64,000 nt of DNA from positions 310,001-374,000 of the forward strand of contig NC_003228.3 in the NCBI RefSeq assembly GCF_000025985.1, written 5' to 3'. Made by a program: the position numbers and the translations under genes. Positions 11,846 to 49,546 of the stretch are shown piece after piece; the stretch's first letter is position 1, and each line of letters opens with the position of its first letter. Below the pieces are notes generated by a model. It was not told where the DNA came from and did not search any database. It saw only the letters and a program-made list of their open reading frames with translations. The DNA comes from Bacteroides fragilis NCTC 9343. Lineage in GTDB: Bacteria > Bacteroidota > Bacteroidia > Bacteroidales > Bacteroidaceae.

Positions 11846-11913
11846 TACAAAGTTTGTGAATTCTGTATGAAATGTGCGACACAAACTATTCAATAAATAG
11901 CAATTACTGACCA
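11846..11913 (-). promoter_or_regulatory. PUL operator/promoter copy A (drives leftward operon)
   Basis: Read on the minus strand: TGGTCAG (11913-11907), 14 nt, TGAATAG (11892-11886), and the -7 box CTTTGTA (11852-11846). The internal TTTATTGA (11897-11890) is exactly 37 nt from the -7 box, as in the five other copies. The first ORF starts at 11769. Confidence 0.8.
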
Positions 11914-11957
11914 ATACGATGCGAAATGCGGGTTATGTGAATATTAGAAGTATAAAA

Positions 11958-12025
11958 AGAACAGATTCTTTTGTTTATTGAGCAGTATTTATCCCTTTAT
12001 TCAACGAAAATGTTTTTTCTTTGTA
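11958..12025 (+). promoter_or_regulatory. PUL operator/promoter copy B (drives GH43-GH2-GtaA operon)
   Basis: AGAACAG (11958-11964), 14 nt, TGAGCAG (11979-11985), TTTATTGA at 11974-11981, then 37 nt to the -7 box CTTTGTA at 12019-12025. Copy A lies back-to-back in the same intergenic region. Confidence 0.82.
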
Positions 12026-12046
12026 GCATCTTAATAACAGAAAGCT

Positions 12047-13153
12047 ATGAAAACAAAGATCTACCTGCTATTTATTACTACCTTATTCTTCTGCGCCGGT
12101 TGTGGCAACAAGAGCGGCGGACAGAAACAGGAGTCGGTAAGTGCGGCAAAGGATACATATGTAAATCCTTTGTTTCCGGAAGGGGCCGATCCGAGTGCTC
12201 TTTTCCATAATGGTAAGTATTATTATACCCATGGAACGGAAGATAAGATCATGCTTTGGGAAACGTCCGATATCACTGATATGGCTCATGCGGTTTGCAA
12301 GATAGTGTGGAAGCCTCAGGATCCATCCAACAGTTGTCATCTCTGGGCACCGGAGATTCACTATATCAATGATAAATGGTATATATATTATGCAGCCGAC
12401 GACGGCAATACGGATAATCACCAGTTGTACGTACTTGAAAACTCTTCACCCGACCCGATGGAGGGAAAGTTCGAAATGAAAGGAAGTATCATAACCAATC
12501 CCGAATGGAATTGGGGGATACAGGCCACCACTTTCGAACATAAGGGAGTCCGCTATCTGGCCTGGTCCGGATGGTCCAAAAGGAGAACCAATGCCGAAAC
12601 TCAATGTATCTATATTGCCAGGATGAAAGATCCGTGGACACTCGATTCACCCCGTGTCCTGATATCCAAACCCGAGTATGAATGGGAACGGCAGTGGGTC
12701 AATCCGGATGGCAGCCGTACGGCTTACCCCATTTATGTGAATGAAGGGCCTCAGTTCTTCCATTCGAAAGATAATAAGACGTTGATTCTATATTACGCTG
12801 CCAGCGGTTCGTGGTCACCCTATTACTGTGTCGGGATGTTGACTGCCGATGCCGAGAGTGATTTGTTAGATCCGGCTTCCTGGACAAAGAGTTCGGTTCC
12901 GGTATTTCAGCAATCGTTGGAGAATGAAGTTTATGGTCCGGGTGGACTCTCCTTTGTTCCCTCGCCCGATGGGACTGAATGGTATATGATTTACCATGCC
13001 CGTCAGGTGACCAATGGAGACACCGGGAGTCCTGAAACCCGTAATCCGCGAATACAAAAAATAGGATGGGATGCCCATGGAATGCCCGATTTAGGGATTC
13101 CGGTTCGTGCAGGGGTTGCCTTGCCAAAACCTTCGGGTACTCTTTTGAAATAA
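12047..13153 (+). CDS. GH43-family lipoprotein, paralog of the one at 550
   Basis: A 368-residue lipoprotein (lipobox FFCAGC) with a full GH43 five-bladed propeller: HLWAPEIH, WYIYYAADDG, YGPGGLSFV. It is closely similar along its whole length to the protein encoded at 550-1626. Here the general base is canonical Asp48 (GADPSALF) and the acid is Glu233 (VNEGPQ). The pKa-modulator position, normally Asp, is Gln159 (GIQATTFEH). Relatives of this group are annotated as alpha-L-arabinofuranosidases or beta-xylosidases; galactofuranosidase activity is another possibility. It is the first gene of a rightward operon, about 22 nt after the -7 box. The two paralogs stand at the far ends of divergent operons under the same operator type. 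Confidence 0.87.
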   Translation: MKTKIYLLFITTLFFCAGCGNKSGGQKQESVSAAKDTYVNPLFPEGADPSALFHNGKYYYTHGTEDKIMLWETSDITDMAHAVCKIVWKPQDPSNSCHLWAPEIHYINDKWYIYYAADDGNTDNHQLYVLENSSPDPMEGKFEMKGSIITNPEWNWGIQATTFEHKGVRYLAWSGWSKRRTNAETQCIYIARMKDPWTLDSPRVLISKPEYEWERQWVNPDGSRTAYPIYVNEGPQFFHSKDNKTLILYYAASGSWSPYYCVGMLTADAESDLLDPASWTKSSVPVFQQSLENEVYGPGGLSFVPSPDGTEWYMIYHARQVTNGDTGSPETRNPRIQKIGWDAHGMPDLGIPVRAGVALPKPSGTLLK

Positions 13154-13185
13154 AATAGTCATTTAGAACATTTTTTCCTTAGTCT

Positions 13186-13207
13186 GACAGGTAGCCGCCT
13201 ACCTGTC
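13186..13207. repeat. Short perfect hairpin in the GH43-GH2 gap
   Basis: A 9-bp perfect stem (GACAGGTAG/CTACCTGTC) with a 4-nt loop lies in the 102-nt gap. No T run follows, so it is not an evident terminator. It could tune expression of downstream genes. Confidence 0.55.
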
Positions 13208-13255
13208 CCGGGGATCGTATTGCATCATTAATAGGTTAAACATAATTTGAAGACA

Positions 13256-15070
13256 ATGAAAAAGAGCATTTTAATTGCAGTTCTGACAGCGTCGATAGCT
13301 ACTTCCGCTTTTGCACAATGGAAACCGGCAGGAGACAAAATCAAGACAAAGTGGGCTGAGCAGGTGAATCCTGAAAATGTATTGCCCGAGTATCCACGTC
13401 CGGTGATGGAACGGGGAGAGTGGAAGAACCTGAATGGTTTGTGGAATTATGCCATCACCGAGAAAGGAGCTGCTCCTTCAGCTTACGAAGGTCAGATTCT
13501 GGTTCCTTTTGCCATAGAGTCCAGCCTTTCGGGTGTTGGTAAGAAAGTCGGCCCCGACAAAGAACTCTGGTATCAGCGTACTTTCACAGTACCCGCTTCC
13601 TGGAAAGGTAAAAAAGTGATGCTGAACTTCGGTGCTGTAGACTGGAAAGCTGATATTTGGGTCAATGACATTAAGGTGGGACAACACACCGGAGGATTTA
13701 CTCCTTTTTCACTCGATATTACGGCTGCTTTGGCTACTAAAGGAGACAATAAACTTGTTGTGAAGGTATGGGACCCGACAGATCGCGGACCTCAGCCTCG
13801 TGGCAAACAGGTAAACCGTCCGGAAGGCATCTGGTATACGGCTGTTACCGGTATCTGGCAAACTGTCTGGATGGAGCCTGTGGCCGAACGTCATATTACT
13901 AATGTTCGTACGACTTCGGACATCGACCGTAAGAAACTCACAGTGGACGTTACTACCAGTACCAGCTGTCCTTCGGAAGTTGTCGAGGTAAAGGTTTTCG
14001 ATGGTAAACAGCTGGTTGCTACCGGAAAAGGATTGAACGGCCAGACTATTGACATTCAGATGCCTGCTGATGCCAAACTGTGGAGTCCTGCTTCTCCGAC
14101 TCTTTATTCTATGCAGATTGCCCTGTTGAGCAATGGTAAAGTGACCGATAAAGTAGATAGCTATACAGCTATGCGCAAATACTCTACCCGCCGTGACAAG
14201 GACGGAATTGTACGTTTGCAGCTGAACAATGAAGATGTGTTCCAGTTCGGTCCTCTCGATCAAGGATGGTGGCCCGACGGACTGTATACAGCTCCGACAG
14301 ACGAAGCGTTGGTTTATGATATTCAGAAAACCAAAGACTTCGGATTTAACATGATCCGTAAACACGTGAAGGTGGAACCGGCACGTTGGTATACGCACTG
14401 TGATAAACTGGGTATCATCGTATGGCAGGATATGCCGAACGGCGACCGTGAACCGGAGTGGCAGATGTACAACTACTTCACCGGCAATGAACTGAATCGT
14501 AGCGAGGAGTCGGAACAGATCTATCGCAAAGAGTGGAAGGAAATCATGGATTATCTGTACAACTATCCTTGTATCGGTGTATGGGTTCCGTTTAACGAGC
14601 GTTGGGGACAGTTCAAGACTGAAGATATCGCGACATGGACAAAGAAGTATGATCCTTCACGCTTGGTGAACCCGGCAAGTGGCGGTAATCACTTCCCTTG
14701 CGGTGATATTCTTGACTTGCATCATTATCCCAATCCGTCACTTGACTTCTACGATGCCGGACGTGCTACCGTGTTAGGTGAATATGGCGGCATCGGCCTG
14801 GCACTGAATGAACATCTTTGGGAACCGAACCACAACTGGGGATACGTGAAGTTTAATTCACCCGAAGAAGTAACCAAACAATACGTTGAATACGGCAATG
14901 AACTGTATCGGTTGATTTCAAGAGGTTTCTCAGCTGCTGTCTATACACAGACTACGGATGTAGAAATGGAGGTGAACGGACTGATGACATACGACCGTAA
15001 AGTGATTAAGGTGAATGAAGCTCAGGTGAAAGCTATCAATACAAAGATATGCAATTCTTTAAATAAGTGA
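13256..15070 (+). CDS. GH2 glycoside hydrolase, second
   Basis: The start is ATG 13256 (MKKSILIAVL); the in-frame TTG at 13247 is less likely. The signal peptide ends near SAFAQ. The 604-residue protein has a GH2 jelly-roll (LWYQRTFTVPASW, GIWQTVWMEPV), an Ig-like domain, and a TIM barrel with acid/base Glu448 (VPFNERWGQ) and nucleophile Glu509 (VLGEYGG). Like the GH2 at 5731 it lacks the C-terminal LacZ domains, but the two differ enough to suggest different targets. It is co-transcribed with the GH43 before it and the GtaA-like gene after it. The exact sugar cannot be told from sequence; galactosidase, galactofuranosidase or arabinosidase would all fit the locus. Confidence 0.9.
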   Translation: MKKSILIAVLTASIATSAFAQWKPAGDKIKTKWAEQVNPENVLPEYPRPVMERGEWKNLNGLWNYAITEKGAAPSAYEGQILVPFAIESSLSGVGKKVGPDKELWYQRTFTVPASWKGKKVMLNFGAVDWKADIWVNDIKVGQHTGGFTPFSLDITAALATKGDNKLVVKVWDPTDRGPQPRGKQVNRPEGIWYTAVTGIWQTVWMEPVAERHITNVRTTSDIDRKKLTVDVTTSTSCPSEVVEVKVFDGKQLVATGKGLNGQTIDIQMPADAKLWSPASPTLYSMQIALLSNGKVTDKVDSYTAMRKYSTRRDKDGIVRLQLNNEDVFQFGPLDQGWWPDGLYTAPTDEALVYDIQKTKDFGFNMIRKHVKVEPARWYTHCDKLGIIVWQDMPNGDREPEWQMYNYFTGNELNRSEESEQIYRKEWKEIMDYLYNYPCIGVWVPFNERWGQFKTEDIATWTKKYDPSRLVNPASGGNHFPCGDILDLHHYPNPSLDFYDAGRATVLGEYGGIGLALNEHLWEPNHNWGYVKFNSPEEVTKQYVEYGNELYRLISRGFSAAVYTQTTDVEMEVNGLMTYDRKVIKVNEAQVKAINTKICNSLNK

Positions 15071-15165
15071 TTAGAGTAGGGTGTCGATAGGTACACAGGT
15101 TTTTGATTAAGGTAAAGATTGTTGAAGGATACTATTTAGATTGAAACATACTAATAAATAAAATA

Positions 15166-17676
15166 ATGAAAAAACTATTCACAATGGCTTTAGCAGTCGG
15201 TATGCTGTGCAATGCGCAGGCAGCCGACCTGTATAAGGCAAGTAGAAATGTTGCTTTGCGTGCGCCGGCGGTGCCTCTCATCACTTCCGACCCCTATCTG
15301 TCCATCTGGTCGCCCACAGATGCGCTGAACGAAAGCAGCACTATGCACTGGACCGGAACGGAACATCCTTTGTTGGGTGCTATCCGTGTAGACGGGAAGA
15401 CTTACCGCTTTATGGGGAAAGATAAATTGAATCTTGAAACCCTTGTACCCATGACCGATACCGATACCTGGCAGGGGAGTTATACTTTCGATGAGCCGGC
15501 TGCGGGATGGAACGCCCTTTCGTTCAATGCTGCCGGATGGAAAGAGGGACAAGGTGCTTTCGGTACTCCCGATATGCCTCGTGTCCATACTCGCTGGACT
15601 ACTCCGGACATCTGGGTTCGCCGCGATTTCCAGATTAACGATGATATGAACGGAGAAACCATCTATCTGAAATATTCGCACGACGATGTATTCGAACTCT
15701 ACCTGAATGGTGAAAAGCTGGTTGCTACAGACTATTCATGGAACAACGACGTATTACTCGAACTATCGGATGCAGCCAAGAAGAAGCTGCAAAAAGGAAA
15801 AAACGTACTTGCCGCACACTGTCACAACACAACAGGAGGTGCTTATGTAGATTTCGGCCTTTATCGCCTGAACAAACAGACGACAGGTTTTGAGACGGCA
15901 GCCGTCCAGAAATCGGTAAGCGTACTCCCCACACAAACTTACTACACGTTTACTTGCGGTCCGGTGGAACTGGACCTGGTGTTTACCGCACCTTTGATGA
16001 TGGACGACCTCGATTTGTTGTCTACTCCCGTTAATTATATTTCTTATCGCGTTCGTTCGCTGGACAAAAAGCAACATGATGTGCAGATGTATGTGGAGAC
16101 CACTCCGCAGCTTGCCATTAATGAACTGACGCAACCTACCCGTTCGAAAGTGATCCGCCGTAACGGTATCAATTATGTACAGGCAGGGACTATCGACCAG
16201 CCTATCCTTGCACGAAAAGGAGACGGTATCTGTATTGATTGGGGATATGCTTATCTGGCAGGAAATATAGGTGCCAATACAGCTGTTAGCCTGGGTAACT
16301 ATTATGGCATGAAGAACGAGTTTGTTACCAAGGGTTCTTTGTTGCCTACACAAGCCGAGTGCGTGACCCGTCGTGCCGACCAGATGCCGGCTATGGCCTA
16401 TACTGACGATCTGGGTAAAGTAGGTACCGATGGCAAATCCGGCTTCCTGATGTTGGGTTACGATGATATTTATGCTATCGAATACTTCTATCAACCTCGC
16501 ATGGCCTACTGGAAGCATGATGGTAAGGTAAGCATCTTCGATGCCTTTGAGCGTGCCAAAGCAAACTATGCGTCTGTCATGGAACGTTGCCGTGCTTACG
16601 ACGAAATGATTCTGAACGATGCAGAAAAAGCAGGTGGCAAAGAATACTCTGAACTGTGTGCATTGGCTTACCGTCAGGTGATTGCCGCCCATAAGCTGTT
16701 CAAGGATGCGGATGGTAACTTGCTCTTCTTCTCTAAAGAGAACAATAGTAACGGTTGTATCAATACTGTCGACCTGACTTATCCGTCTGCTCCGCTCTTC
16801 CTGGCTTATAACCCCGAATTGCAGAAAGGCATGATGACCAGTATCTTTGAATATAGTGCCAGCGGACGTTGGAACAAGCCTTTCCCGGCTCACGACCTGG
16901 GAACTTATCCTATTGCTAACGGACAGGTATACGGTGGTGACATGCCGATTGAAGAAGGTGGAAATATGGTAGTCCTGGCTGCTGCTATTGCCAAGGTAGA
17001 AGGTAACGCCGACTATGCTAAGAAGTATTGGGATTTACTGACCATTTGGACTGATTATCTGGCGGAATACGGACAAGATCCCGAGAACCAACTCTGTACT
17101 GATGACTTTGCCGGACACTGGGCACATAACGCCAACCTTTCGGTAAAAGCGATCATGGGTGTAGCTGCCTACAGTGAAATGGCCCGTATGCTCGGTATGG
17201 ATGATGTAGCCGACCGATATGCTGCCAAAGCCAAAGCAATGGCTACCAAATGGGAACAAATGGCTCGTGAGGGTGATCATTATCGTCTGGCATTCGACCG
17301 TGAGAATACCTGGAGCCAGAAGTACAATATGGTTTGGGACAAGATGTGGAATCTGAACCTTTTCCCCAATAATGTGATTGAGAAAGAAATTTCTTATTAT
17401 CAGACCAAACTGCAAAACCCTTATGGACTTCCGTTGGATTCCCGCAAGGAATATACTAAATCCGACTGGATTATGTGGACTGCTGCCATGTCTTCTGATA
17501 AGGCTACTTTCGAGAAATTTATTTCTCCGGTATATAAGTATGCTAATGAAACCGTATCACGTGTTCCGCTGAGCGACTGGCATCATACCGATAGCGGTAA
17601 GTTTGTCGGCTTCAAGGCACGTTCCGTGATCGGTGGTTATTGGATGAAGGTATTAATGGATAAAATGCAGAAGTAA
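15166..17676 (+). CDS. GtaA-like protein (DUF5127/DUF4965/DUF1793), first paralog
   Basis: An 836-residue secreted protein (signal peptide ending near NAQAAD). The beginning (VPLITSDPYLSIWSP, MHWTGTEHPLLG) and C-terminal two-thirds (FLAYNPEL, GGDMPIEEGGNM, CTDDFAGHWAHNANL, SQKYNMVWDKMWNL) match the DUF4965/DUF1793 family. That family is named glutaminase A after a fungal protein and has an (alpha/alpha)6-barrel core. Residues of about 95-255 look like an inserted beta-sandwich of the type seen in GH2 jelly-rolls (PDIWVRRDFQI, YLKYSHDDVFELYLNGE). In a mannan-type PUL a carbohydrate-active role is more plausible than glutamine hydrolysis, but that is inference. It ends the rightward operon. A strong paralog is at 36086. 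Confidence 0.82.
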   Translation: MKKLFTMALAVGMLCNAQAADLYKASRNVALRAPAVPLITSDPYLSIWSPTDALNESSTMHWTGTEHPLLGAIRVDGKTYRFMGKDKLNLETLVPMTDTDTWQGSYTFDEPAAGWNALSFNAAGWKEGQGAFGTPDMPRVHTRWTTPDIWVRRDFQINDDMNGETIYLKYSHDDVFELYLNGEKLVATDYSWNNDVLLELSDAAKKKLQKGKNVLAAHCHNTTGGAYVDFGLYRLNKQTTGFETAAVQKSVSVLPTQTYYTFTCGPVELDLVFTAPLMMDDLDLLSTPVNYISYRVRSLDKKQHDVQMYVETTPQLAINELTQPTRSKVIRRNGINYVQAGTIDQPILARKGDGICIDWGYAYLAGNIGANTAVSLGNYYGMKNEFVTKGSLLPTQAECVTRRADQMPAMAYTDDLGKVGTDGKSGFLMLGYDDIYAIEYFYQPRMAYWKHDGKVSIFDAFERAKANYASVMERCRAYDEMILNDAEKAGGKEYSELCALAYRQVIAAHKLFKDADGNLLFFSKENNSNGCINTVDLTYPSAPLFLAYNPELQKGMMTSIFEYSASGRWNKPFPAHDLGTYPIANGQVYGGDMPIEEGGNMVVLAAAIAKVEGNADYAKKYWDLLTIWTDYLAEYGQDPENQLCTDDFAGHWAHNANLSVKAIMGVAAYSEMARMLGMDDVADRYAAKAKAMATKWEQMAREGDHYRLAFDRENTWSQKYNMVWDKMWNLNLFPNNVIEKEISYYQTKLQNPYGLPLDSRKEYTKSDWIMWTAAMSSDKATFEKFISPVYKYANETVSRVPLSDWHHTDSGKFVGFKARSVIGGYWMKVLMDKMQK

Positions 17677-20312: not shown

Positions 20313-23300
20313 TTATTTATAAACTTCCAGTTCGTAGATACGTGTATCTCTGCCTCCGGTGCTCTGTGTAGGACGAGTCACAAGCAGACGGATGTAACGT
20401 ACTTTTCCGTCATAGTTCAGCGGACGTGAAACGACATTTGCATGGTTACCGTCGATAGCATCCAGAGTCGTCCATTCATCGCCCGGGTTCATTTTACCTT
20501 GCAGGAAGCAACCATTGGTAATGTATGAGTGACTTTCCTGTCCGGCGTTCACCATCTTCCAACCACTGATGTTTTGTGCTTCACCCAGATCGAAGTCTAC
20601 GTAGTTCGGAGTCTGCGAAACGTCACACCACTTTGTATCCGTTTTACCATCCAGCAGGAAGTCCGGTTTTTCTTCGTCGTTGGTATATCCGGAGCAAGCA
20701 ATGATTTTAGCTCTTTTCAGGATATTTTCGCGTACTGCTTCTTCATCATTTCCGGCAGTAGCTGCATTACCTACGTTATTGGTGCGGAAAAGAGTGCCGG
20801 CAACGGTTGTAGCCGGTTCATTTTCGGCAACCAGAGTAGCAGCAAACAAAACCACTTTCTCATTTCGGGGCAAGATTACGCTGGTAGCTCCCTTCGGAAT
20901 ATCCATACCAAATTTGAACATATAAGTGAATTCATAAGGCTGATCACCGTTGGATGCATGGCGGTGTGTACCTACATAGGCAATCTCAGCATCTTTCAGG
21001 TATCCTTCGGTGTGTCCTTTATGTCCCCATTGGCCGATGAAGCCGGTATAAGAAGGTACAACGAATGAAGCGGTCTGCTTGCCAATGCGGAAGTCGGCCT
21101 GATTGTCTCCTTCGGTAGAGGCGGCGAGGATATAGAGACGGTTGTATTTGTTTCCCGCAGGCAGTTGCAAGGTATCACCTTCACAAGTCATTCCGTTCGC
21201 AATCTCTTTTTCTCCCAAGCGGAAAGTGATCTGACCGGCTATCAGTGAGTCCGGCAGAAGTTCGGCTGCAAAAGAATAGCCCGATTCGAAGTCGCCTTCT
21301 CCACGGAATTCATTATAAGAAGCACATTTGCGGTCGTAGTCAAGCGGTAAAGCGGCATATTCGATCGGAGACGCCTCACGTCCCGATGGTTTGAGGCGTA
21401 CTTTGTAAGTTCTTACAGAATAAGGAGTGATGTTTACCTGCAACTTGTTTCCTTCGAAAGTTGCATTGCCGATTGTCTTTTCTGTACCGTTGGCTTCGCT
21501 GGCACTGATGATTTCCCCTGCAAAGGTCAGTGTGGCGCTCTGTGCTTTCCGGCCTTCGGTTTCGTATACGCGTACTACATACTCATCGGTTTCTTCCGCT
21601 TTCTTCAGTGCCTTGATCAATACATTGCGGTTGTCCGAAGCGACAAACGAGAACGATTTTCCGACATTTCCTTTGTGCTTTTCCGTACGGAAGGCTTTCA
21701 GTTGCTGGTTCAGCTTTTCGGCTTTCTCTACAGTGGCAGGTTTATCCAAGGCTCCCTGATGCGGTATCAGGCTGTAGGTGAAGGTATGATGACCGAGATC
21801 CTGATGATCCTGATATGCGTAACCTCCGCGTGTTTCCGGTGTGTGGAGCAGGGTGAGGCGGATCGTATGGTTATCCGGCTTGTCCCATCCATATTTGCTG
21901 TCGTTCATCACCGATACACCATAACTTCCGTCACGATCGGTCAGGTCGGCCCAATATTGTGCATATACTTCGTAAGCTGTTTCGGTATTGTTGCCACGTT
22001 GTATGCTGCCGATACCCAAGTCGTACGTAGCCTTTTCGTTTTCAAGATTGAGCGGGAATTCGGCTTTTAACAATGCGTTGGTCGATTGCCAGTCTATTTC
22101 GTTATAGAAGTCGATGCGTTCTGCACGGCTACCTTCATACAGACGTATGTATTGACGGAAGACAGATTCTCCGTGACGTTTCTCGACACAAAGCGATTTA
22201 CGTAAAGTTCCGTCTTCAACCAAAGTTATTTTCACGTCATCCGTAATCGAAACCGGAGTACGGTCGGTTGTCTCTTTCAACACTTCCCATGCCGGCCAAT
22301 TGTATGACTTGTTCTGAGTGAAGAGTGCCAGGCGGATTGCTTTCCCGGCTTTCACCAGCTCTTTGCCGTTCTTTTTGTCAGTCAGAGAGACGATATCTCC
22401 ATTTTTATCCAATGTAATCTTGTACAGAGAGTTTTCCAAGGTATTGACGTTCGTCGAGACGTTGCTTGCACCGGTTCCTGATGTGCGTATGTCATATACC
22501 ACATATCCTGTAGCCGGAACTGTTGCTTCTACCAGGATGCGTGCTTTTCCGTCGGTATAAGAAATGAGCTGAGCCGATACTTTTTTGCCCTTTTCATCGT
22601 ACACCGTTATCCCTTTGGGGGCTTTTGGAAGGTCAAGTTCTATTTCCGCAATATCTGTAACCGCAAATCCGAGTGCATTATAAAGGATTACCGGAATACC
22701 GCTGACCCGTGTATCCAATTCCCTGCCGATACCATGAATGGAAGAAGTCAGTACATTGGAGAACTGTTTCAGTGAGATTAGTTCATCGTTCCATGAAAAT
22801 TCATAGGCACGCGGTATACTGGTTCCTGTCAGGTCATCGTGGAACTGATGATAAATGAAGCGTTTCCATGCTTCATTGATGGTGCTTCCCGGATATTTGG
22901 CCTGATTCAGCCATTCGGCAGTTACGGCAGCTCTTTCGGCCGCATCTCCCAGTAATTCGTTCTGGCGGTTGTACAATTTCATGGCAGCCTGTGAGGTGTA
23001 GCATCCTGTACCGTGAACATCCATCAACAGTTCACCGTCGAATACCGGTAATTCCGGATGATTCTTATAAGGAAGGTAATCTTTGTAAAGCTGGTCGCTG
23101 GTTGCACTGACAATTTCTACCGGACCGTTTCCGCGAAGTCCTTTTTCCACTGAACGGACAGAGGCCAGTGTCGGTGATCCGCCGATATCGCCTGTACCGT
23201 AATATCTGTATACTGTATTAAGTGGTGTACGGCCTGCCAGTTCTTTCAGTTGTTCGTTTTCTGAAAGGTCTTCGTCGTTCCATCTTCTGCCATAATCATA

Positions 23301-38574: not shown

Positions 38575-38662
38575 CCACAGGTTACACGGATTTTCACAGG
38601 TTAATTATTTTCCCATTGATACTGAAGATTAAAAAAACTGTGTTAGTCCGTGTAATCTGTGG
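38575..38662. repeat. Intercistronic inverted repeat of the CACAGAG family
   Basis: The arms 38575-38599 and 38638-38662 share CCACAG-TTACACGGA-T and CACAG. It fills the gap between the GtaA-like gene and GH92. Confidence 0.65.
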
Positions 38663-38684
38663 TGAATTTAAAACTATTAATATC

Positions 38685-40970: not shown

Positions 40971-41013
40971 GGCTGGACAGAAACAGATTACTTAATAAAA
41001 ACCAATCAAGATT

Positions 41014-42480
41014 ATGCCAGGAAAAAATTCAAAGAAAATGATCGGAGCATGTGTCGTTACTGCGGCACTGCTCTGTGCGCCTTCAGCACTGAAGGCTGAA
41101 GGTATGTTGTCGCATTATACTTGTGTGGCAGATGCTATTCAGAAAGACAACCGTCCGGAACCCGCTAAGCGTCTGTTCCGTTCGCAGGCTGTAGAAAACG
41201 AAATCATACGTGTACAGAAACTGTTGCGTAACTCAAAGCTGGCCTGGATGTTTACCAATTGTTTCCCCAATACACTGGATACCACCGTACACTTCCGCAA
41301 AGGCAAAGACGGCAAACCCGATACTTTTGTATATACAGGAGATATTCATGCCATGTGGCTCCGTGACTCGGGGGCCCAGGTATGGCCTTATGTACAACTG
41401 GCCAATTCCGATCCGGAACTGAAAACGATGCTTGCCGGAGTTATCAACCGCCAGTTTAAATGTATCAATATCGATCCGTATGCCAATGCGTTCAATGATG
41501 GTCCTAAAGGGGGTGAATGGATGAGCGACCTGACGGATATGAAACCTGAGTTGCATGAACGCAAATGGGAGATCGACTCGCTTTGCTATCCGTTGCGCCT
41601 GGCTTATCAGTACTGGAAGACAACAGGGGATGCCAGTATCTTCGATGAAGAATGGATACAGGCAATCACCAACATATTGCGTACTTTTAAGGAACAACAG
41701 CGCAAAGACGGTGTGGGTCCGTATAAGTTCCAACGTAAGACAGAGCGTGCTCTCGATACAGTGACCAACGACGGACTGGGTAATCCGGTGAAACCTGTCG
41801 GACTGATTGTTTCCACTTTCCGTCCTTCGGACGATGCCACGACATTGCAGTATCTGGTTCCGTCCAACTTCTTTGCCGTATCTTCACTCCGCAAGGCAGC
41901 CGAGATACTAACAACCGTGAATAAAAAGACGGCTTTGGCCAATGAATGCAAGGCTTTGGCAAACGAGGTGGAAACAGCCCTGAAGAAATATGCCGTTTAC
42001 AATCATCCCAAATACGGAAAGATTTATGCTTTCGAGGTGGACGGTTTTGGTAACCACATGCTGATGGACGATGCCAACGTTCCGAGCCTGCTGGCAATGC
42101 CTTATCTGGGTGATGTGTCGATTGATGATCCGATTTATCAGAATACCCGCCGTTTTGTATGGAGCCTCGACAATCCTTACTTCTTCAAAGGTAAGGCAGG
42201 CGAGGGCATTGGCGGACCACACATCGGATACGATATGGTATGGCCCATGAGTATCATGATGAAAGCTTTCACCAGCAAGGATGATGCGGAGATCAAGTCG
42301 TGCATCGAGATGCTGATGAATACGGATGCAGGTACAGGCTTCATGCACGAGTCTTTCCATAAAGACAATCCTGAGAAATTTACCCGTGCCTGGTTTGCAT
42401 GGCAGAATACTTTGTTCGGTGAGTTGATCCTGAAACTGGTGAATGAAGGTAAAGTGGATATGCTGAATAGTATACAGTAA
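41014..42480 (+). CDS. GH125 exo-alpha-1,6-mannosidase
   Basis: A 488-residue secreted enzyme (signal peptide ending near SALKAEG). The GH125 (formerly DUF1237) signature is present: [41 protein letters not shown] (Asp188, a likely general acid) and [10 protein letters not shown], whose Glu is a likely base. The [13 protein letters not shown] and [14 protein letters not shown] segments are also typical. GH125 enzymes are inverting exo-alpha-1,6-mannosidases and would finish the backbone fragments made by the GH76 enzymes. It is 43 nt after GH92 in the same operon. Confidence 0.95.
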
Positions 42481-42507
42481 GAATATAACGAAACAGAAAT
42501 GAATGAG

Positions 42508-42631
42508 ATTCACCACAGAGTAGCACAGAGTCCCACTGAGTTTTTAGACAGATGAACAAATAAAGAATAGTTTGTCCTTTTGTTCATCTGTCTAAAAACT
42601 CAGTGGGACTCCGTGTCGCTCTGTGGTGAAT
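42508..42631. repeat. Near-perfect 51-bp inverted repeat between GH125 and the epimerase
   Basis: The arms 42508-42558 and 42581-42631 pair at 47 of 51 positions around a 22-nt loop. The outer ends read ATTCACCACAGAG and CTCTGTGGTGAAT, the shared signature of the repeat family in this window. Confidence 0.9.
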
Positions 42632-42652
42632 AAAACTCAAAACAGTTTAATA

Positions 42653-43789
42653 ATGAGAAAATTAGCTATGTGGGCACTGGGTGCCCTCTTTGTAGCCGGT
42701 TGTGCAGAGACAGAAAAGGCTACTACGGATTCCGGTTTGGTAAAGAGCAATTTCCAGACTGAGGTGGGCGGAAAGAAAACCGATTTGTATGTACTCCGTA
42801 ATCAGAACAACATGGAGGTTTGCGTCACTAATTTTGGAGGACGTATTGTTTCGGTAATGGTTCCCGATAAAGAAGGGGTGATGCGTGATGTAGTGTTGGG
42901 CTTCGACTCTATTCAGGATTACATCAGCAAGCCTTCGGACTTCGGTGCCAGCATCGGTCGTTATGCCAATCGCATCAATCAGGGAAAATTTACTTTAGAT
43001 GGAGTTGAATACCAGTTGCCGCGCAATAACTACGGACATTGCCTGCACGGTGGTCCGAAAGGATTCCAATATCAGGTATACGATGCCAAGCAGGTGGGAC
43101 CGCAGGAACTTGAGTTGACTTATCTTTCAAAAGACGGCGAGGAAGGTTTCCCCGGTAATATCACCTGTAAGGTTATTATGAAGCTGACAGATGATAATGC
43201 CATCGATATCAAGTATGAGGCAGAAACGGATAAACCGACCATTGTCAATATGACCAACCACTCTTATTTCAATCTGGACGGAGATGCAGGCAGCAATGCC
43301 GATCATCTGCTGACTATCGACGCCGATGCTTATACTCCCGTGGACAGTACCTTTATGACCAGTGGCGAGATTGTAACAGTGGAAGGTACTCCGATGGACT
43401 TCCGCACACCGACTCCGGTTGGAAAACGCATTAATGATTTCGATTTCGTGCAGTTGAAGAACGGTAATGGTTACGACCATAACTGGGTGTTGAATGCCAA
43501 AGGCGATATTACCCGTAAGGCCGCTACTCTTGAATCACCCAAAACCGGTATCGTACTCGATGTATACACTGACGAACCCGGTATTCAGGTATATGCAGGA
43601 AACTTCCTTGACGGTTCGCTGACCGGAAAGAAAGGTATTACTTACAATCAACGTGCTTCTGTCTGTCTGGAGACTCAAAAGTATCCCGATACTCCGAACA
43701 AACCTGAATGGCCTTCGGCTGTATTGCGTCCGGGTGAAACCTACAATAGTCATTGTATCTTCAAATTCTCGGTAGATAACGGAAAATAA
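42653..43789 (+). CDS. Aldose 1-epimerase (mutarotase), lipoprotein
   Basis: The start is ATG 42653 (MRKLAMWALG), giving a lipobox (FVAGC). The 378-residue protein has the GalM family pattern: FGGRIVSVMVPD, GASIGRYANRI, HCLHGGPKGFQ, the catalytic His in NMTNHSYFNL and the catalytic Glu in CLETQKYPDTPN. Mutarotases interconvert alpha and beta anomers of free sugars. A periplasmic lipoprotein form in a PUL would equilibrate sugars released by the many inverting and retaining hydrolases before import. It is the last gene before a strong terminator, separated from GH125 by the 51-bp inverted repeat. Confidence 0.92.
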   Translation: MRKLAMWALGALFVAGCAETEKATTDSGLVKSNFQTEVGGKKTDLYVLRNQNNMEVCVTNFGGRIVSVMVPDKEGVMRDVVLGFDSIQDYISKPSDFGASIGRYANRINQGKFTLDGVEYQLPRNNYGHCLHGGPKGFQYQVYDAKQVGPQELELTYLSKDGEEGFPGNITCKVIMKLTDDNAIDIKYEAETDKPTIVNMTNHSYFNLDGDAGSNADHLLTIDADAYTPVDSTFMTSGEIVTVEGTPMDFRTPTPVGKRINDFDFVQLKNGNGYDHNWVLNAKGDITRKAATLESPKTGIVLDVYTDEPGIQVYAGNFLDGSLTGKKGITYNQRASVCLETQKYPDTPNKPEWPSAVLRPGETYNSHCIFKFSVDNGK

Positions 43790-43813
43790 CACAAGCGTTT
43801 TTTTAGTTGTATT

Positions 43814-43870
43814 GGCATAAGGAATATAGGGTCTGGCAGATCTGCTTCTATATCCTTATGCCTCTTTTTA
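43814..43870 (+). terminator. Terminator ending the GH76-to-epimerase operon
   Basis: A stem of GGCATAAGG-ATATA with its complement (43814 onward, right arm ending at 43862) is followed by TCTTTTTA. Confidence 0.8.
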
Positions 43871-43892
43871 TATCCTGTTTTTAATTCATATC

Positions 43893-45113
43893 ATGACACA
43901 TACACAAACGATCACACCTAAAAAGCGTATTAATTCGATCGATGCCTTGCGGGGGTTCGCACTGATTGGCATCATGCTCTTGCATTGCATGGAGCGTTTC
44001 GACCTGACTTTAGCTCCGGTTGTGGAGTCTCCTTTCTGGCAGGCAATAGATACGGCAGTATACGATTCACTCTATTTTTTGTTTTCCGGGAAATCATACG
44101 CTATGTTTTCCCTTTTGTTCGGTTTGAGCTTTTTCATGCAGATGGAGTCTCAAGCAGCTAAAGGAGTCGATTTCCGGGGACGCTTCCTCTGGAGGCTTGC
44201 CTTATTGTTCCTGTTTGGCTATATCAACGGATTGGTCTATATGGGAGAGTTTTTTATGGTCTATGCCGTATTAGGAGTCTTCTTGATTCCTCTTTATAAA
44301 GTTCCCACCAGATGGTTGCTGGTGCTATGCGTTTTGCTGTTTCTGCAGATACCGGCAGTCATTAGTTTTGTATCTCTGCTCAGCGACAATGTGGCTAACG
44401 AACCGACTGCTGCGGCAGCCTATATGGACCGGCTTTTTGAAAGGGCGGCCGATGTCTTTATCAATGGATCACTGATGGATGTACTGAGTTTCAATACGTT
44501 CGACGGACAGTCGGCCAAATGCCTGTGGGTATTCAATAATTTCCGTTACCTCCAGTTATTGGGACTGTTTATTGCCGGAATGCTGATCGGGCGTCAGGGT
44601 ATTCACAAAAGTGAGGAAAAGATGGTGAAGTACAGTCGTCTGTTTTTACCTTATTGTCTGGCTTTCTGGGCAGTATTTTATGCTGTTGCCTTCCTGCTTC
44701 CGGTATGGGGAGTGGACGGGTTTGCGTTGCGGGTAGGACAGACTCTTTTCAAGACGTATGGCAATCTGGGACAGATGATGGTTTATTTCTGCGGTTTCAC
44801 TTTGCTGTATTATCGGTATAAGGGGCAGAAAGTGCTCGACCGTATTGCTCCGGTGGGACGAATGAGTGTGACGAACTATATGGCGCAGTCGATAGTCGGA
44901 GTTTCCCTATTCTATGGTTTTGGCGGGAACTTTGCTGTCGAGTTCAACTATTTGCAGAGCTTTTTGCTGGGAGCGGCTTTCTGTGTCATCCAGATTGCTT
45001 ATAGCAATTGGTGGATTAAGAGATTCTACTATGGTCCCATGGAGTGGCTGTGGCGTTCGCTTACCTGGTTTCAGGTGGTGCCGTTGTCAAGGCGTAAAGC
45101 TTCGCTTGGATAA
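43893..45113 (+). CDS. DUF418-type (YeiB-like) inner-membrane protein
   Basis: A 406-residue integral membrane protein with about ten hydrophobic segments. The N-terminal motif RINSIDALRGFALIGIMLLH is typical of the DUF418/YeiB group, related to acyltransferase-3 proteins, and the C-terminal DUF418 part holds APVGRMSVTNYMAQSI and GPMEWLWRSLTW. The biochemical function is unknown in general; transport or acyl transfer has been suggested for relatives. It lies between two parts of the PUL, after a terminator and before a GH43, so membership of the glycan pathway is possible but not shown. Confidence 0.82.
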   Translation: MTHTQTITPKKRINSIDALRGFALIGIMLLHCMERFDLTLAPVVESPFWQAIDTAVYDSLYFLFSGKSYAMFSLLFGLSFFMQMESQAAKGVDFRGRFLWRLALLFLFGYINGLVYMGEFFMVYAVLGVFLIPLYKVPTRWLLVLCVLLFLQIPAVISFVSLLSDNVANEPTAAAAYMDRLFERAADVFINGSLMDVLSFNTFDGQSAKCLWVFNNFRYLQLLGLFIAGMLIGRQGIHKSEEKMVKYSRLFLPYCLAFWAVFYAVAFLLPVWGVDGFALRVGQTLFKTYGNLGQMMVYFCGFTLLYYRYKGQKVLDRIAPVGRMSVTNYMAQSIVGVSLFYGFGGNFAVEFNYLQSFLLGAAFCVIQIAYSNWWIKRFYYGPMEWLWRSLTWFQVVPLSRRKASLG

Positions 45114-45162
45114 TAATGTGTCATATAGGTATATTGGTGATATTTAAAACAGATATTGGCTT

Positions 45163-48156
45163 ATGTTTATAAATTCTTTAAGGAAATCCCCTTTTTCCTG
45201 TTCTCCGGGATTGATCCTGTTGGGGGCGTTTACCCTGTTATCTGTTCCTGTGTATGGGCAGCAGATACAACAGGCGGAAAGACAGGTGCAGCAAGTTCCT
45301 TTCCTTCAATTCAACTTCGATGAACAGGGAGGAGAGACAGCCCGTAACAGTGGAAGAGGAGGCTCAAAATATGATGCCCGGATCAACGGAGGTACGGTGG
45401 AGTGGGGGCCGGGTCTGCAGCAGGGAGCGGCAAGACTCAGTAACAAAGGACACTTCAAGTTACCGGACGGAGTCCTGGCACATGTGAAAGATTTCACTTT
45501 GTCTGTCTGGGTCTATCTGAATGAACAGTCTGACAACCAAACGGTGTGCACGTTTGCTTGCGGAACAGACCGTTACCTGATTTTGACAACCCAAAGAGGG
45601 AATGAAGAGAACGGCGTTTCTCTGGTTATGACGAAGACACAGGAGAGTGGAAATCATACCGACAAGGAAGAACGCATTGCATATACCCGTCAGAAAGGTA
45701 AACTGTCGGCTAACGCCTGGCATCATCTTGCTTTCACTCTGAAAGGGAGTGTCGGCACTCTTTATGTAGACGGAGTGAAAGCTGAAATAAAGACGGACTT
45801 CACCGTGAATCCTTCATTGTTAGGTAATACGACCGATAATTACATTGGCCGGCCGACCTGGCCCGATCCATATCTGAATGGCGGGATTGATGATTTCAGG
45901 TTGTATGACTATGCCTTGACAGACCGGCAGGTATACGAACTTGCATCGGTAGCGGACGGGCGGTTGGTGCAGGAAGACAGGGACGGACTTTCGTTGGGCG
46001 ATTTGTCGGCGGTAACCACCGACCTTGTGTTGCCTTCGTCCGGTAAGAGCGGTACTACCATCTCGTGGAGCTCGGCTCAGGGGCAGTACATCAGTGACAG
46101 TGGAAAGCTTTACCGCCCCGATGCGGGAACCGGAAACAAGAAGGCAACCCTGACAGCAACGGTCCGGAAGGGAGACGTGGCTTTGACTAAAGACTTTGTT
46201 TTGACCGTCAAGGATATAGGGACTGAACCGGAAGATGTGAATGTCTTTTCGATGCAGACGGGAAATCCGACTGTGCCTGCTTATCTGGCAGACGCATCTT
46301 TCTATTATGATGACCGGACCAAGACTTTTTATGCTTTCGGAACCAATGACGGAGCGGGTGGTGAAAATGTGTATCCAGCCCAGATGTGGTACTCCAAGGA
46401 CTGTAAGGAATGGAAGAATGAAGTGATCGCCTTCCCAAAATCATGGACGGACTATGCCGGGACCTTGTGTGTATGGGCTCCCAGTATCGAATACAATCCG
46501 GATACAAAGAAGTATTATCTGATGTATAGCATTGCTTCGAATACCTTTGTCGGTATGGCGGACGACCTCTTGGGGCCGTGGGAAGATGCCAATGGGGCAG
46601 CTCCCGGTAAGATGCTTTTCAAGGGATATGACGGACAGTTTTTTATGGATGATGACCGGACGATGTATATTGTAACTGACTCCTGGCACTTTAAGATTAT
46701 GAAGTTGAAGTTCGATGAGGCCGGAAAGATCTATATTGACAACAGTGATCCGGTATTCGCCAAAAGCGATTCCAATCCATTTATCGGCACTTACCACTAT
46801 ACGCAGATAGAAGAGATAAAAAATGCTTTTGAAGCTTCGTTTATTTTTAAGAGAAATAATTTATACTACCTGATGTGGTCGTTTAACGGTAGTGAGAATT
46901 ATAATGTCCGATATGCCGTAGCCGATAAGATCACGGGGCCTTACCGGGAGATCAACCGGTCTATGACTGTTCCTGTATTGCAACGTGATGATGCCAATCG
47001 GATTTTGGGTCCCGGACATCATTCGATGTTCTGTTACGGAGGGCGTACGTTTATTGCTTATCATCGGCAACATTATCCTTTTGTAGACAGTAAACGGCAG
47101 ACTTGTATCGACGAAGTTTTCTTTAATGAGGATGGAAGTATCCGTCCCATTACTCCAACCCACAAGGGGGTAACGGTTGCTCCCGATGTTCCGGGCGATC
47201 ATCGTACGAATCTTGCTTTAGGAAAGCAGACCTTGACCTCTTCGGCGAGGGTGTATGATGATTCGGAATTTGCTCCCCGCTATCGTACACACGGCATTTC
47301 ATTCTGTTATGCCGGTAACTTTGCCGTAGACGAGAATTACGGGACCCATTGGGATCCCGGAGTCGGTGCACATAAGCCTTGGCTGATTGTAGATTTGGGC
47401 AGCGAGTGTAAAGTGGATGAGATAGAGACAATTTTTGAGTTTACAAGCCGTACTTACAAGTATAAACTCGAATATTTGTCACAGAAAGAAGCCGGCAGTC
47501 TGGATGCAGCCTCCGGCAGTCATTTGTGGAAAGTGTTTGCAGACCGGAGTACGGACGGTGTCGGACAATCTCCGGTGACGGATACGAAGCCGGGCAATTC
47601 TCCGGTGAAAGCAAGGTTTATCCGTCTGACCATTCTGGAAGGGGTTGACATCCCCCTGAGAGCAGACGGGCTGGACAAGAAGAATGCCGAAAATGCATTA
47701 AGTATTTTTGAATTGAAAGTTTTTGGAGAAGATCGGTCGGATGACCTGAACCGTATTTTTAAGGCGGAAAGCTTCCATAACCTATATGGGATAGCTCTTG
47801 AAAAGAATGCGGCCGAGAACGGATTTATCATGGGGCAGATCGATAATAACGATTATTTGCTCTACCGGAATGTAGATTTAGGCAAAGGGGCAGGCACGTT
47901 TACAGCTAAAGTTGCTTCAGGTACCGAAGGCGGGAAGATAGAGGTTTATCTGGGTTCCTTGAAGGGAAAACCTATCGGAGTGCTCGAAGTGGGCAATACG
48001 GGTGGCGACCAATCCTGGGAAATCAAGTCAACGTCTCTTGAACGGATTGCGAGAGGGCGGCAGGAGAAATTGTATCTGCTGTTCAAAGGTAAGACCGGTA
48101 CCGAGAACCTATTGAAACTGGATTGGTTTCAGTTTACTAAAGACCGGATGAAATAA
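45163..48156 (+). CDS. Five-domain GH43: LamG - Ig-like - GH43 - F5/8C - CBM6-like
   Basis: A 997-residue secreted protein (signal peptide ending near VYGQQ). Domains in order: a LamG/concanavalin-like module (about 45-260; DFTLSVWVYLNEQ, AWHHLAFTLKGS), an atrophied bacterial Ig-like domain (about 275-350), a GH43 propeller (about 360-670), a discoidin-like F5/8C module (about 690-850; YGTHWDPGVGAHKPWLIVDLG) and a CBM6-like C-terminus (about 865-997; KAESFHNLYGIALE to LDWFQFTK). GH43 residues fit Asp in LADASFY, Asp in YDGQFFMDD and Glu in FEASFIF. With three possible sugar-binding modules it may act on large or cell-wall-bound substrate. The gene before it encodes a membrane protein, and the next GH43 follows by 31 nt. 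Confidence 0.88.
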   Translation: MFINSLRKSPFSCSPGLILLGAFTLLSVPVYGQQIQQAERQVQQVPFLQFNFDEQGGETARNSGRGGSKYDARINGGTVEWGPGLQQGAARLSNKGHFKLPDGVLAHVKDFTLSVWVYLNEQSDNQTVCTFACGTDRYLILTTQRGNEENGVSLVMTKTQESGNHTDKEERIAYTRQKGKLSANAWHHLAFTLKGSVGTLYVDGVKAEIKTDFTVNPSLLGNTTDNYIGRPTWPDPYLNGGIDDFRLYDYALTDRQVYELASVADGRLVQEDRDGLSLGDLSAVTTDLVLPSSGKSGTTISWSSAQGQYISDSGKLYRPDAGTGNKKATLTATVRKGDVALTKDFVLTVKDIGTEPEDVNVFSMQTGNPTVPAYLADASFYYDDRTKTFYAFGTNDGAGGENVYPAQMWYSKDCKEWKNEVIAFPKSWTDYAGTLCVWAPSIEYNPDTKKYYLMYSIASNTFVGMADDLLGPWEDANGAAPGKMLFKGYDGQFFMDDDRTMYIVTDSWHFKIMKLKFDEAGKIYIDNSDPVFAKSDSNPFIGTYHYTQIEEIKNAFEASFIFKRNNLYYLMWSFNGSENYNVRYAVADKITGPYREINRSMTVPVLQRDDANRILGPGHHSMFCYGGRTFIAYHRQHYPFVDSKRQTCIDEVFFNEDGSIRPITPTHKGVTVAPDVPGDHRTNLALGKQTLTSSARVYDDSEFAPRYRTHGISFCYAGNFAVDENYGTHWDPGVGAHKPWLIVDLGSECKVDEIETIFEFTSRTYKYKLEYLSQKEAGSLDAASGSHLWKVFADRSTDGVGQSPVTDTKPGNSPVKARFIRLTILEGVDIPLRADGLDKKNAENALSIFELKVFGEDRSDDLNRIFKAESFHNLYGIALEKNAAENGFIMGQIDNNDYLLYRNVDLGKGAGTFTAKVASGTEGGKIEVYLGSLKGKPIGVLEVGNTGGDQSWEIKSTSLERIARGRQEKLYLLFKGKTGTENLLKLDWFQFTKDRMK

Positions 48157-48187
48157 TGATTGTATTATATTGAAAAAAGATTATATT

Positions 48188-49156
48188 ATGGGAAAGAAAA
48201 AGATTAGTACCGGAGTATGGCTGCTGGGGCTGCTGATTGTGTTTTGCTCTTATACAGGAGTTGCCGGAGCAAAAAACAGGTCAAAAACAAAAACCGTGAC
48301 AAAGTCGGTTCCGTTGGGCGATCCTTTTATTCTATTGCACGATGGAACTTATTATGCTTACGGAACGCATGCGGCCGACGGTATTGAAGTGTATACATCA
48401 AAAGATCTCAGGAAGTGGAAACTGCACGGGCTGGCACTTCATAAAGATGATGTTTGGGCGGATAGCCGCTTCTGGGCACCGGAGATTTACGAGATCGACG
48501 GGAAGTTTTATATGTATTATACGGCAGACGAACACATCTGTGTGGCCATAGCCGATTCTCCGTTAGGTCCGTTCAGGCAGAACGAGAAGAAACCGATGGT
48601 TGCTGGCGAGAAGATGATCGATAGCTCCCTGTTTATCGATGAAGATGGAAAACCTTATCTTTTCTTCGTTCGCTTCAATGATGGCAATAACGTATGGGTA
48701 GCGGAATTGGAGGACGATTATATGACGATTAAAACGGAGACGATGCGTCCTTGCATTCATGTTTCGCAGGCATGGGAAGAAGTGTGGCCGCGTGTGAATG
48801 AAGGATCTTATGTGCTTAAACATAACGGATTGTATTACATGACTTATTCCGGTAACAGCTTTGAGAGCCCATTCTATGGGATCGGATGTGCCACCGCTAC
48901 GGATATCATGGGGGAATGGACCAAATACCAGGAAAATCCGATTTTGCAGAAACCGGGGAATTTGCAGGGAGTGGGGCATAGTGCCATGTTCAAGGATAAA
49001 AAGGGCAGACTTCGCATTGTTTATCATGCGCATAAAGATAAAGAGCATATTCATCCACGGGGCATGTACATCGGTAAGGTCTATTTTGAAAAAGTGGATG
49101 GTATAGACCGCATGCGGATCAACAAGGAATATATTGCTGCGGAATTGGTCGAATAA
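48188..49156 (+). CDS. GH43 glycoside hydrolase (parent of the decayed copy at 51.3 kb)
   Basis: The start is ATG 48188 (MGKKKISTG); the TTG at 48170 is less likely. The signal peptide ends near VAGAKN. The 322-residue enzyme has an intact GH43 triad: Asp in LGDPFI, Asp in MIDSSLFID and Glu in VNEGSYVL. RFWAPEIYEIDGKFYMYYT and GVGHSAMF are further family signs. It could be a beta-galactosidase, xylosidase or arabinosidase-like GH43. Its C-terminal third is duplicated as a broken copy at 51325-51591. It is the last gene of the PUL before a terminator. Confidence 0.9.
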   Translation: MGKKKISTGVWLLGLLIVFCSYTGVAGAKNRSKTKTVTKSVPLGDPFILLHDGTYYAYGTHAADGIEVYTSKDLRKWKLHGLALHKDDVWADSRFWAPEIYEIDGKFYMYYTADEHICVAIADSPLGPFRQNEKKPMVAGEKMIDSSLFIDEDGKPYLFFVRFNDGNNVWVAELEDDYMTIKTETMRPCIHVSQAWEEVWPRVNEGSYVLKHNGLYYMTYSGNSFESPFYGIGCATATDIMGEWTKYQENPILQKPGNLQGVGHSAMFKDKKGRLRIVYHAHKDKEHIHPRGMYIGKVYFEKVDGIDRMRINKEYIAAELVE

Positions 49157-49223
49157 ACCGGGGGGTAGAAATCGATATAGGCGTAAAACGGATGGATGAA
49201 TCCGGAGAATCTGTTGTTCGATA

Positions 49224-49264
49224 AAAAGGGTGTAGCTATCTATATGGTGAGGCTACACCCTTTT
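49224..49264 (+). terminator. Terminator at the right end of the PUL
   Basis: A 13-bp stem (AAAAGGGTGTAGC with GCTACACCCTTTT) has a T-rich tail, 67 nt after the GH43 stop. GGCTACACCC is repeated at 49273. Confidence 0.85.
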
Positions 49265-49478
49265 GTTGTTGGGGCTACACCCAGATATATCTATATGGGG
49301 TGTCTTTAGTTTGTAATAGCTATTGAATATATATTGTTTTTGTATTTCTATTTTTGTTTAATATACTGTCAGGATTGAGAGAAAAATAACATGGATATGT
49401 TTTGTGGAATAGTAAAATTTGGTAAATAATTTTTGCTGCTGTTACATTACAGGTAATATTGGTCTAATTTTCTGATTT

Positions 49479-49546
49479 TGGCTGTATTTTACTGTTTATT
49501 GACCAGTAATTATCCCTTTCCCCTTTTTGTTTTACTGATCTTTGTA
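49479..49546 (+). promoter_or_regulatory. PUL operator/promoter copy F (in front of the Cys-rich peptide gene)
   Basis: The second half-site TGACCAG (49500-49506), TTTATTGA (49495-49502), 37 nt, and the -7 box CTTTGTA (49540-49546) match the other copies. The first half-site at 49479-49485 (TGGCTGT) is weaker. It lies in the 473-nt gap 49157-49629, which otherwise holds only the PUL terminator. Confidence 0.75.

Follow-up and report, generated by a model that had tools for sequence, protein, structure and literature searches.

Six promoters of an alpha-mannan-type polysaccharide utilization locus of Bacteroides fragilis share a tandem operator at a fixed distance from the -7 box, probably read by the hybrid two-component system of the locus

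Operators for 16 hybrid two-component systems (HTCSs) of Bacteroides thetaiotaomicron were predicted by Ravcheev et al. in 2013 (PMC3878776) and are described, in the accessible text of that paper, as direct repeats with an average of 21 bp. Those of HTCS_Man (BT2628, BT3302, and BT3786) consist of two 16-bp sites with a 5-bp spacer, arranged as a direct repeat, and 20 of the 36 B. thetaiotaomicron HTCSs were left without a motif. The available portions of two further papers report that the regulatory part of the HTCS BT0366 bound DNA at the polysaccharide utilization loci (PULs) that it regulates, as seen by ChIP-seq with a chimera (PMC3404733), and that its DNA binding was also observed by gel shift (PMC5061871). 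Here, we describe a tandem operator in a PUL of B. fragilis NCTC 9343, located in a stretch of 64,000 nucleotides (nt) of NC_003228.3 (G000:C1:310001-374000; hereafter, the window) within a genome of 5,241,700 bp in two contigs. The letters themselves establish two 16-bp direct repeats, 21 bp apart and at a fixed distance from a sigma-ABfr-type -7 box, an arrangement that is kept in other Bacteroides. That the six promoters carrying it are activated by the HTCS at the left end of this PUL, through the mechanism proposed below, is in our judgment very probable.

Compared as a layout and not letter by letter, the operator is like that of HTCS_Man as given in the accessible text: a pair of 16-bp sites separated by a 5-bp spacer lies upstream of alpha-mannan PUL genes, and an HTCS is encoded in the locus. 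It also resembles the other HTCS operators of Ravcheev et al. in its ~21-bp direct repeat, its position upstream of PUL genes including susC/susD (promoter 4), and the presence of an HTCS in the locus, which is found here but not in the genomes G036 and G014 discussed below. One difference is that the receiver of the PUL HTCS carries the consensus SHIP motif, whereas BT2628, BT3302, and BT3786 are listed among the deviating HTCSs in the accessible part of a 2024 mBio paper (PMC11253607).

An earlier note on this DNA had marked six 68-bp promoter blocks, and all six were found with the positions and strands that it gave (E values are from the profile search of the own genome, described below):

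11846-11913, minus strand: promoter 1; half-sites 11898-11913 and 11877-11892, TTTG 11848-11851; profile E 8.4e-12
11958-12025, plus strand: promoter 2; half-sites 11958-11973 and 11979-11994, TTTG 12020-12023; profile E 1.0e-11
23971-24038, minus strand: promoter 3; half-sites 24023-24038 and 24002-24017, TTTG 23973-23976; profile E 2.4e-13
24082-24149, plus strand: promoter 4; half-sites 24082-24097 and 24103-24118, TTTG 24144-24147; profile E 1.2e-13
32652-32719, plus strand: promoter 5; half-sites 32652-32667 and 32673-32688, TTTG 32714-32717; profile E 1.2e-15
49479-49546, plus strand: promoter 6, the most diverged; half-sites 49479-49494 and 49500-49515, TTTG 49541-49544; profile E 2.3e-8

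The distance from TTTATTGA to CTTTG is 37 nt in all six, as had been claimed, and the -7 boxes read CTTTGTA in five promoters and CTTTGCA in one, again in line with the earlier note. Its half-site TGNNCAG proved too loose a description, being exact in three of six distal and three of six proximal half-sites, while the 21-bp offset that it gave holds throughout. The six sites are better described as two 16-bp bipartite direct repeats with a 21-bp period and a 5-bp spacer, with the consensus [wGnnCAGwnwTTnYTr]TTTAT[TGAnCAGTAnTTnTCn], in which the TTTAT spacer is invariant. Read column by column, each half-site has two conserved patches, one GnnCAG-like and one TT..T. The 16-bp repeats are offset by 21 bp in 6/6 promoters, the repeat being imperfect in site 6. 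From the start of the operator to TTTG we count 62 nt (hereafter, TTTG at +62), with 25 weakly conserved bases separating the operator from CTTTGTA or CTTTGCA.

Promoters of the sigma-ABfr type carry TAnnTTTG at -7 and TTTG near -33. Here, TTTG is present in 6/6 promoters, the TA of TAnnTTTG is weak, and no conserved -33 element is seen across the six aligned promoters. The proximal half-site begins 41 nt 5′ of TTTG, and its 3′ patch falls approximately at the position expected for the -33 element. In the divergent pairs at 11846-12025 and 23971-24149, the operator starts are separated by nearly equal distances of 44 and 43 bases, and identical divergent gaps (44 and 43) recur in G153 and G157 (stretches L222 and L215).

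The spacing was tested independently in relatives. We scanned 60 stretches of 23 Bacteroides genomes with a matrix of the 36 operator columns only, which excluded the -7 box. The genomes had been chosen for having an HTCS match, and the stretches by an operator-pattern match (12) or by HTCS neighborhood (48), with the -7 box playing no role in the choice. Sites followed by fewer than 100 nt (one at a score of at least 20, in L241) and identical 70-nt blocks were dropped before counting. At a score of at least 20, this left 59 non-identical, partly orthologous sites, 31 of which come from the 12 operator-chosen stretches, and TTTG stood at exactly +62 in 54 of them, compared with a chance expectation of ~0.4 (background 0.0065 per position). 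A looser cutoff of at least 12 gave 64 of 81 sites with TTTG at +62; with the same matrix, a simulated 1.1-Mb null gave five matches at 12 or above and none at 14 or above. The spacer columns are mostly of low information, with peaks of ~1 bit at +42 and +53. A distance kept in 54/59 sites of relatives while most of the spacer columns vary supports the reading of the earlier note that the element is a functional activator site. Alternatively, the six promoters could have arisen recently by copying of a single ancestor, their fixed spacing then reflecting common descent and not constraint. Some promoters of the relatives are clearly orthologous, and the 59 sites are thus not all independent events; yet the operator and TTTG stay while most spacer columns carry little information, and near distant HTCSs this register is combined with half-site letters that are unrelated (see below), which leaves us giving common descent alone very little credence.

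Like the operators of Ravcheev et al., this one is conserved in relatives: Among the matches listed, B. fragilis G001 and G004 each keep at least five of the six promoters with the 37-nt gap, and operator and register are found in further Bacteroides. An open reading frame (ORF) of at least 80 amino acids (aa) lies within 700 nt of 53 of the 59 sites, with a median TTTG-to-ATG distance of 46 nt. The downstream products, of which 52 of the 53 were scanned, include sulfatase (8), GH2 (8), GH43 (7), GH76 (6), GH127 (4), GH67 (2), and SusC-type Plug (2) proteins, as well as GH115. The contents of the regulon thus seem to change across relatives while operator and register stay. Five sites lack the register (L222 minus, L215 plus, L247 plus, L228 minus, and L234 minus), and two of these, L222 minus and L215 plus, count against a strict lock, being high-scoring operators (37.3 and 30.6) without TTTG at +62. 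These two (L222:10808-10879, minus strand; L215:5878-5949, plus strand) stand divergently to an operator located upstream of a 1067-aa ORF and are possibly orphan operators whose promoters were lost.

In the own genome, TTTATTGA-N37-CTTTG has seven matches in 5.24 Mb, namely the six promoters and C1:1285859, and the reversed-pattern control has none. When the gap was varied from 22 to 52 nt, 38 matches were obtained, seven of them with a gap of 37 and at most three with any other gap (counted from the listed lengths). The match at C1:1285859 was rejected as an operator; its stretch, L010, has no profile match at E ≤ 1. A 35-nt operator pattern with up to three mismatches matched at the six promoters only (control 0), and a matrix built from 60 sites and scanned over the window gave exactly six matches at a score of at least 10, every one with TTTG at +62. 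We also built a 72-column profile from 50 sites, i.e., the six own sites and 44 of the 54 register-bearing sites of relatives (the ten omitted were partly near-duplicates); that this alignment is gapless results partly from selection, and it was not used as spacing evidence. With the best 150 of 4643 first-look candidates scored (150 per genome in the relatives too), the profile recovered the six promoters, all of them contained in it, at E 1.2e-15 to 2.3e-8, and a seventh site, absent from it, at E 3.4e-8; the next match stood at E 0.0044. This site has the same geometry as the six:

L333:5199-5269 (G000:C1:3485199-3485269), minus strand: seventh operator-promoter

The seventh site lies ~3.1 Mb further along the contig, upstream of a 656-aa transglutaminase-like/F5-F8 gene and then two TolB-like propeller genes. 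One gene without assignment lies between these two propeller genes, and a weak divergent partial operator match is seen nearby at L333:5317-5354. The genome scan that the earlier note had proposed therefore returns six sites and one distant full site, followed by noise, and within the own genome the motif does not stand before many unrelated genes, an outcome the note had named as one that would speak against an operator. Its idea of a PUL regulon held in that the six operators precede PUL gene runs, and needs widening in that the distant seventh site takes the regulon beyond the PUL. The same scans bear on another idea, in which the conserved block would serve not as an activator operator but as an UP-like element or for recognition by a sigma factor. 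Its constant distance to the -7 box would be typical of a core element; however, it is a 16-bp direct repeat with a 21-bp period whose letters vary between HTCS loci, and strong scores occur at seven promoters only in the own genome. Moreover, the spacing between -33 and -7 boxes is variable according to the accessible text of a B. thetaiotaomicron start-site paper (PMC7366714), and we regard a core-promoter identity of the block as highly improbable.

The candidate binder named by the earlier note, an AraC-type domain at the left edge of the window, belongs to the following feature:

3-368, plus strand: C-terminal end of the HTCS; Pfam HTH_18 (AraC-type) E 3.4e-21; full gene G000:C1:306379-310368

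The proposal gains support from the whole gene, since this domain is the C terminus of a complete 1329-aa HTCS that has Reg_prop, Y_Y_Y, HisKA, HATPase_c, Response_reg, and HTH_18 in one chain. Two B. fragilis records have an HTCS 94% identical to it. Across genomes of the genus, co-occurrence of the operator with a close HTCS likewise argues for this protein as the binder. Assessed by Fisher tests, and with 17 HTCS candidates scored per genome, the operator (up to three mismatches) was present in 24 of the 26 genomes in which an HTCS matched at E ≤ 1e-80 (own included) versus 28 of the 132 without; at up to two mismatches, counted by eye, the figures were 14/26 versus 2/132. By eye, TGATTAGTG repeats account for many of the 28 matches and for both of the 2. 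The best operator-profile matches in the control genomes G161 and G030 reached only 0.0011 and 0.064, and the HTCSs of G161 are at most 49% identical to the PUL HTCS in the receiver and DNA-binding part.

Several observations weigh against this reading or limit it. Four genomes with sites but at first no HTCS match (G036, G070, G160, and G014) were re-searched with all candidates scored. Six sites at E < 1e-6 are present in G036, where no HTCS exceeds 48% identity; for its cluster at C1:1718789-1737069 (four sites at E < 1e-6, one at 1.7e-5), the nearest HTCS match (E ≤ 1e-30) is ~111 kb away, and another of its sites (886038) lies ~17 kb from an HTCS of 48% identity. G014 has one site at E < 1e-6, no HTCS above 47%, and none within ~96 kb, and in G070 and G160 the contigs that carry sites also encode HTCSs, 45 and 48% identical. 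No operator was found in the upstream flank of the HTCS gene itself, and the spacing rule is not special to this PUL. Because G036, G014, G070, and G160 carry sites without a close HTCS, we read the operator as the property of a wider HTCS subfamily, within which the encoded HTCS is most likely the activator here, and another HTCS may read this operator. The operators could accordingly be genuine activator sites that are read by another HTCS in trans, or by several related ones. Besides the operators of these four genomes, the seventh site ~3.1 Mb away would fit such a reading, as would the presence of other HTCSs in the own genome, where 12 matches span receiver and DNA-binding domain, the PUL HTCS included. 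The strong co-occurrence with a close HTCS orthologue speaks against it, as do the different letters (TAGGAC.../TGGG...) in the two promoters assigned to the nearest own paralog (49%), and we consider it unlikely. In L273/L274 (G000:C1:5070001-5110000), an operator in the same register apparently stands before the gene of this 49% paralog and before the next gene, suggesting autoregulation.

Activation by the PUL HTCS could proceed as follows. The periplasmic propeller domain would sense a mannan oligosaccharide, upon which the HTCS would phosphorylate its own receiver. The two tandem half-sites would each be occupied by an AraC-type domain, both on the same face of the DNA, and, within each half-site, one helix-turn-helix might read GnnCAG and the other TT..T; the presence of two patches in every half-site would agree with the paired helix-turn-helix motifs found in an AraC-type domain. 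The bound activator would then touch RNA polymerase directly, substituting for the missing -33 box, and such a contact would explain why the distance is held to the single base instead of just to a helical turn. In class II activation by AraC at araI1-I2, tandem half-sites lie 21 bp apart, the proximal one adjoins the core promoter, and activation is position-strict. Our promoters are like this system in geometry, with tandem AraC-type half-sites 21 bp apart and the proximal one at the -35/-33 region. They differ from it in the promoter, which is of the sigma-ABfr type, carries TTTG, and lacks a conserved -33 box, and in the proposed regulator, a membrane HTCS in contrast to the cytosolic sugar-binding AraC.

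The same register was evaluated near other HTCSs, in 20 stretches round 10 own paralogs (10 of the 11 with both domains; C1:38460 was left out), 40 stretches of G161, and 72 distant loci with HTCSs 26-36% identical. The TGR half-site pattern was taken from the window sites, the distant loci had already been inspected before, and TGR was one of four patterns tried. Pairs of TGR offset by 21 bp occurred at exactly -41 from TTTG at 27 of 3906 intergenic anchors, compared with a mean of 4.8 at other offsets (SD 2.2, maximum 10; 7 at -42 and 5 at -40), and with 0, 6, and 6 when the control words TTTC, TATT, and TTGT replaced TTTG. All four patterns peaked at -41 (TG, 49 versus 16.9; TG.{5}[AT]TT, 5 versus 0.1; TG.{6}TT, 6 versus 0.2; TGR, 27 versus 4.8). 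The 27 TGR promoters are distinct and lie in 19 loci (10 promoters in G161 and 17 in the distant set); 24 have an ORF within 350 nt, which is at least 900 aa long in 9 of the 24. The HTCSs near the register-bearing loci are 26-49% identical to the PUL HTCS, and the half-site letters vary by locus (e.g., TGAGAT, TGAAAC, and TGGAAT). Strict 21-bp repeats in the distant loci showed the same preference, with 13 in this register, the top of 308 windows (mean 0.97), and 6, 3, 3, 0, 2, and 6 with control words.

These tests did not all agree. Near the own paralogs, no TGR pair was found at -41, and strict direct repeats reached significance neither there (1) nor in G161 (3); in the distant loci, no significant enrichment toward the HTCS gene was seen (7/689 versus 10/1618 anchors, P = 0.30). 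Intergenic 22-bp interspersed tandem repeats with dyads (L298, L316, and L326) dominate in G161 and confound repeat tests. A comparison of blocks shared between promoters of one locus (score of at least 18) favored this register, giving, for pairs in register versus other shifts, 13 versus 0.13 in the window, 5 versus 0.12 in the own paralogs, 5 versus 0.17 in G161, and 13 versus 0.65 in the distant loci, but many of the non-window pairs are duplications, palindromes, or 22-bp repeats; of those beyond the window, the pairs in L273/L274, L321, and L314 look genuine. In 53 other loci, 0 of 455 anchors had the pair at -41 versus 0.32 at other offsets; these numbers are too small to establish that the register is specific to HTCSs. 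HTCSs of the phylum appear in general to use this register with half-site letters of their own. We think it probable that HTCSs across Bacteroidota share one rigid register, in which two half-sites (often TGR.....wTT) are offset by 21 bp and TTTG follows exactly 41 nt after the start of the proximal half-site, which takes the place of the -33 box, with only the letters differing between HTCSs.

The operator layout was already known for mannan HTCSs in 2013, and a single-base lock to the -7 box was not found described. We came across no mention of a constant spacing between operator and -7 box in the accessible text of PMC3878776, PMC3404733, PMC5061871, PMC11253607, PMC7366714, PMC6874557, PMC12125979, PMC10994844, and PMC11501099, which excludes Figure S3 of PMC5061871, where both elements are marked; a wider literature search also found none, a negative only as strong as that search. 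On sequence grounds, the interpretation of the six sites is well supported, and it is the general lock to the -7 box that merits further work. If the position rule is true, position alone would suffice to locate the operator of an uncharacterized HTCS in its PUL promoters, PUL by PUL and without deep orthology, and the mechanism of HTCS activation would become testable through simple spacer changes. Locally, the outcome is a predicted regulon of seven promoters for the alpha-mannan-type PUL, including the distant transglutaminase-like and propeller unit.

The genes of the PUL comprise, by Pfam, two GH76 genes, GH38, GH92, GH125, SusC/SusD, GH3, and two GtaA-like proteins, with several further GH43, GH127, and GH2 genes, and it is from these families that we infer alpha-mannan as the substrate. 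The predicted operons and their leading genes are as follows:

11769-550, minus strand: predicted operon of promoter 1, a GH127/GH127/GH2/GH76/GH3/GH43 run
9706-11769, minus strand: GH127-type, first gene of promoter 1; Pfam GH127 E 2.1e-75
12047-17676, plus strand: predicted operon of promoter 2, GH43, GH2, and GtaA-like
12047-13153, plus strand: GH43, first gene of promoter 2; Pfam E 7.6e-53
23930-17825, minus strand: predicted operon of promoter 3, GH38 alpha-mannosidase and MG2/Plug protein
20313-23930, minus strand: GH38 alpha-mannosidase, first gene of promoter 3; Pfam E 2.9e-43
24274-31713, plus strand: predicted operon of promoter 4, SusC, SusD, DUF3823, and GH43
24274-27477, plus strand: SusC-like TonB-dependent receptor, first gene of promoter 4; Pfam Plug and CarbopepD_reg_2
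27485-29371, plus strand: SusD; Pfam SusD_RagB E 5.9e-43
32750-49156, plus strand: predicted operon of promoter 5, GH76, 720-aa protein, GtaA-like, GH92, GH125, epimerase, DUF418, GH43, and GH43
32750-33868, plus strand: GH76, first gene of promoter 5; Pfam E 1.1e-53
49630-50993, plus strand: after promoter 6, a 97-aa ORF (49630-49923) and then a propeller gene (49929-50993)
49630-49923, plus strand: the 97-aa ORF, Cys-rich with a hydrophobic N terminus, first such ORF of promoter 6

Neither the 720-aa protein of the promoter 5 run (33897-36059) nor the 97-aa ORF has a family match in Pfam (E ≤ 1) or NCBIfam (E ≤ 0.1). The idea that the 97-aa ORF is an NVEALA peptide was rejected, with no match in these two databases and none in a literature search. 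The gene beside it, at 49929, encodes a six-bladed propeller. Further along, a 140-aa ORF at 51079-51501 shows a weak partial GH43 match below the Pfam cutoff and is possibly a gene fragment.

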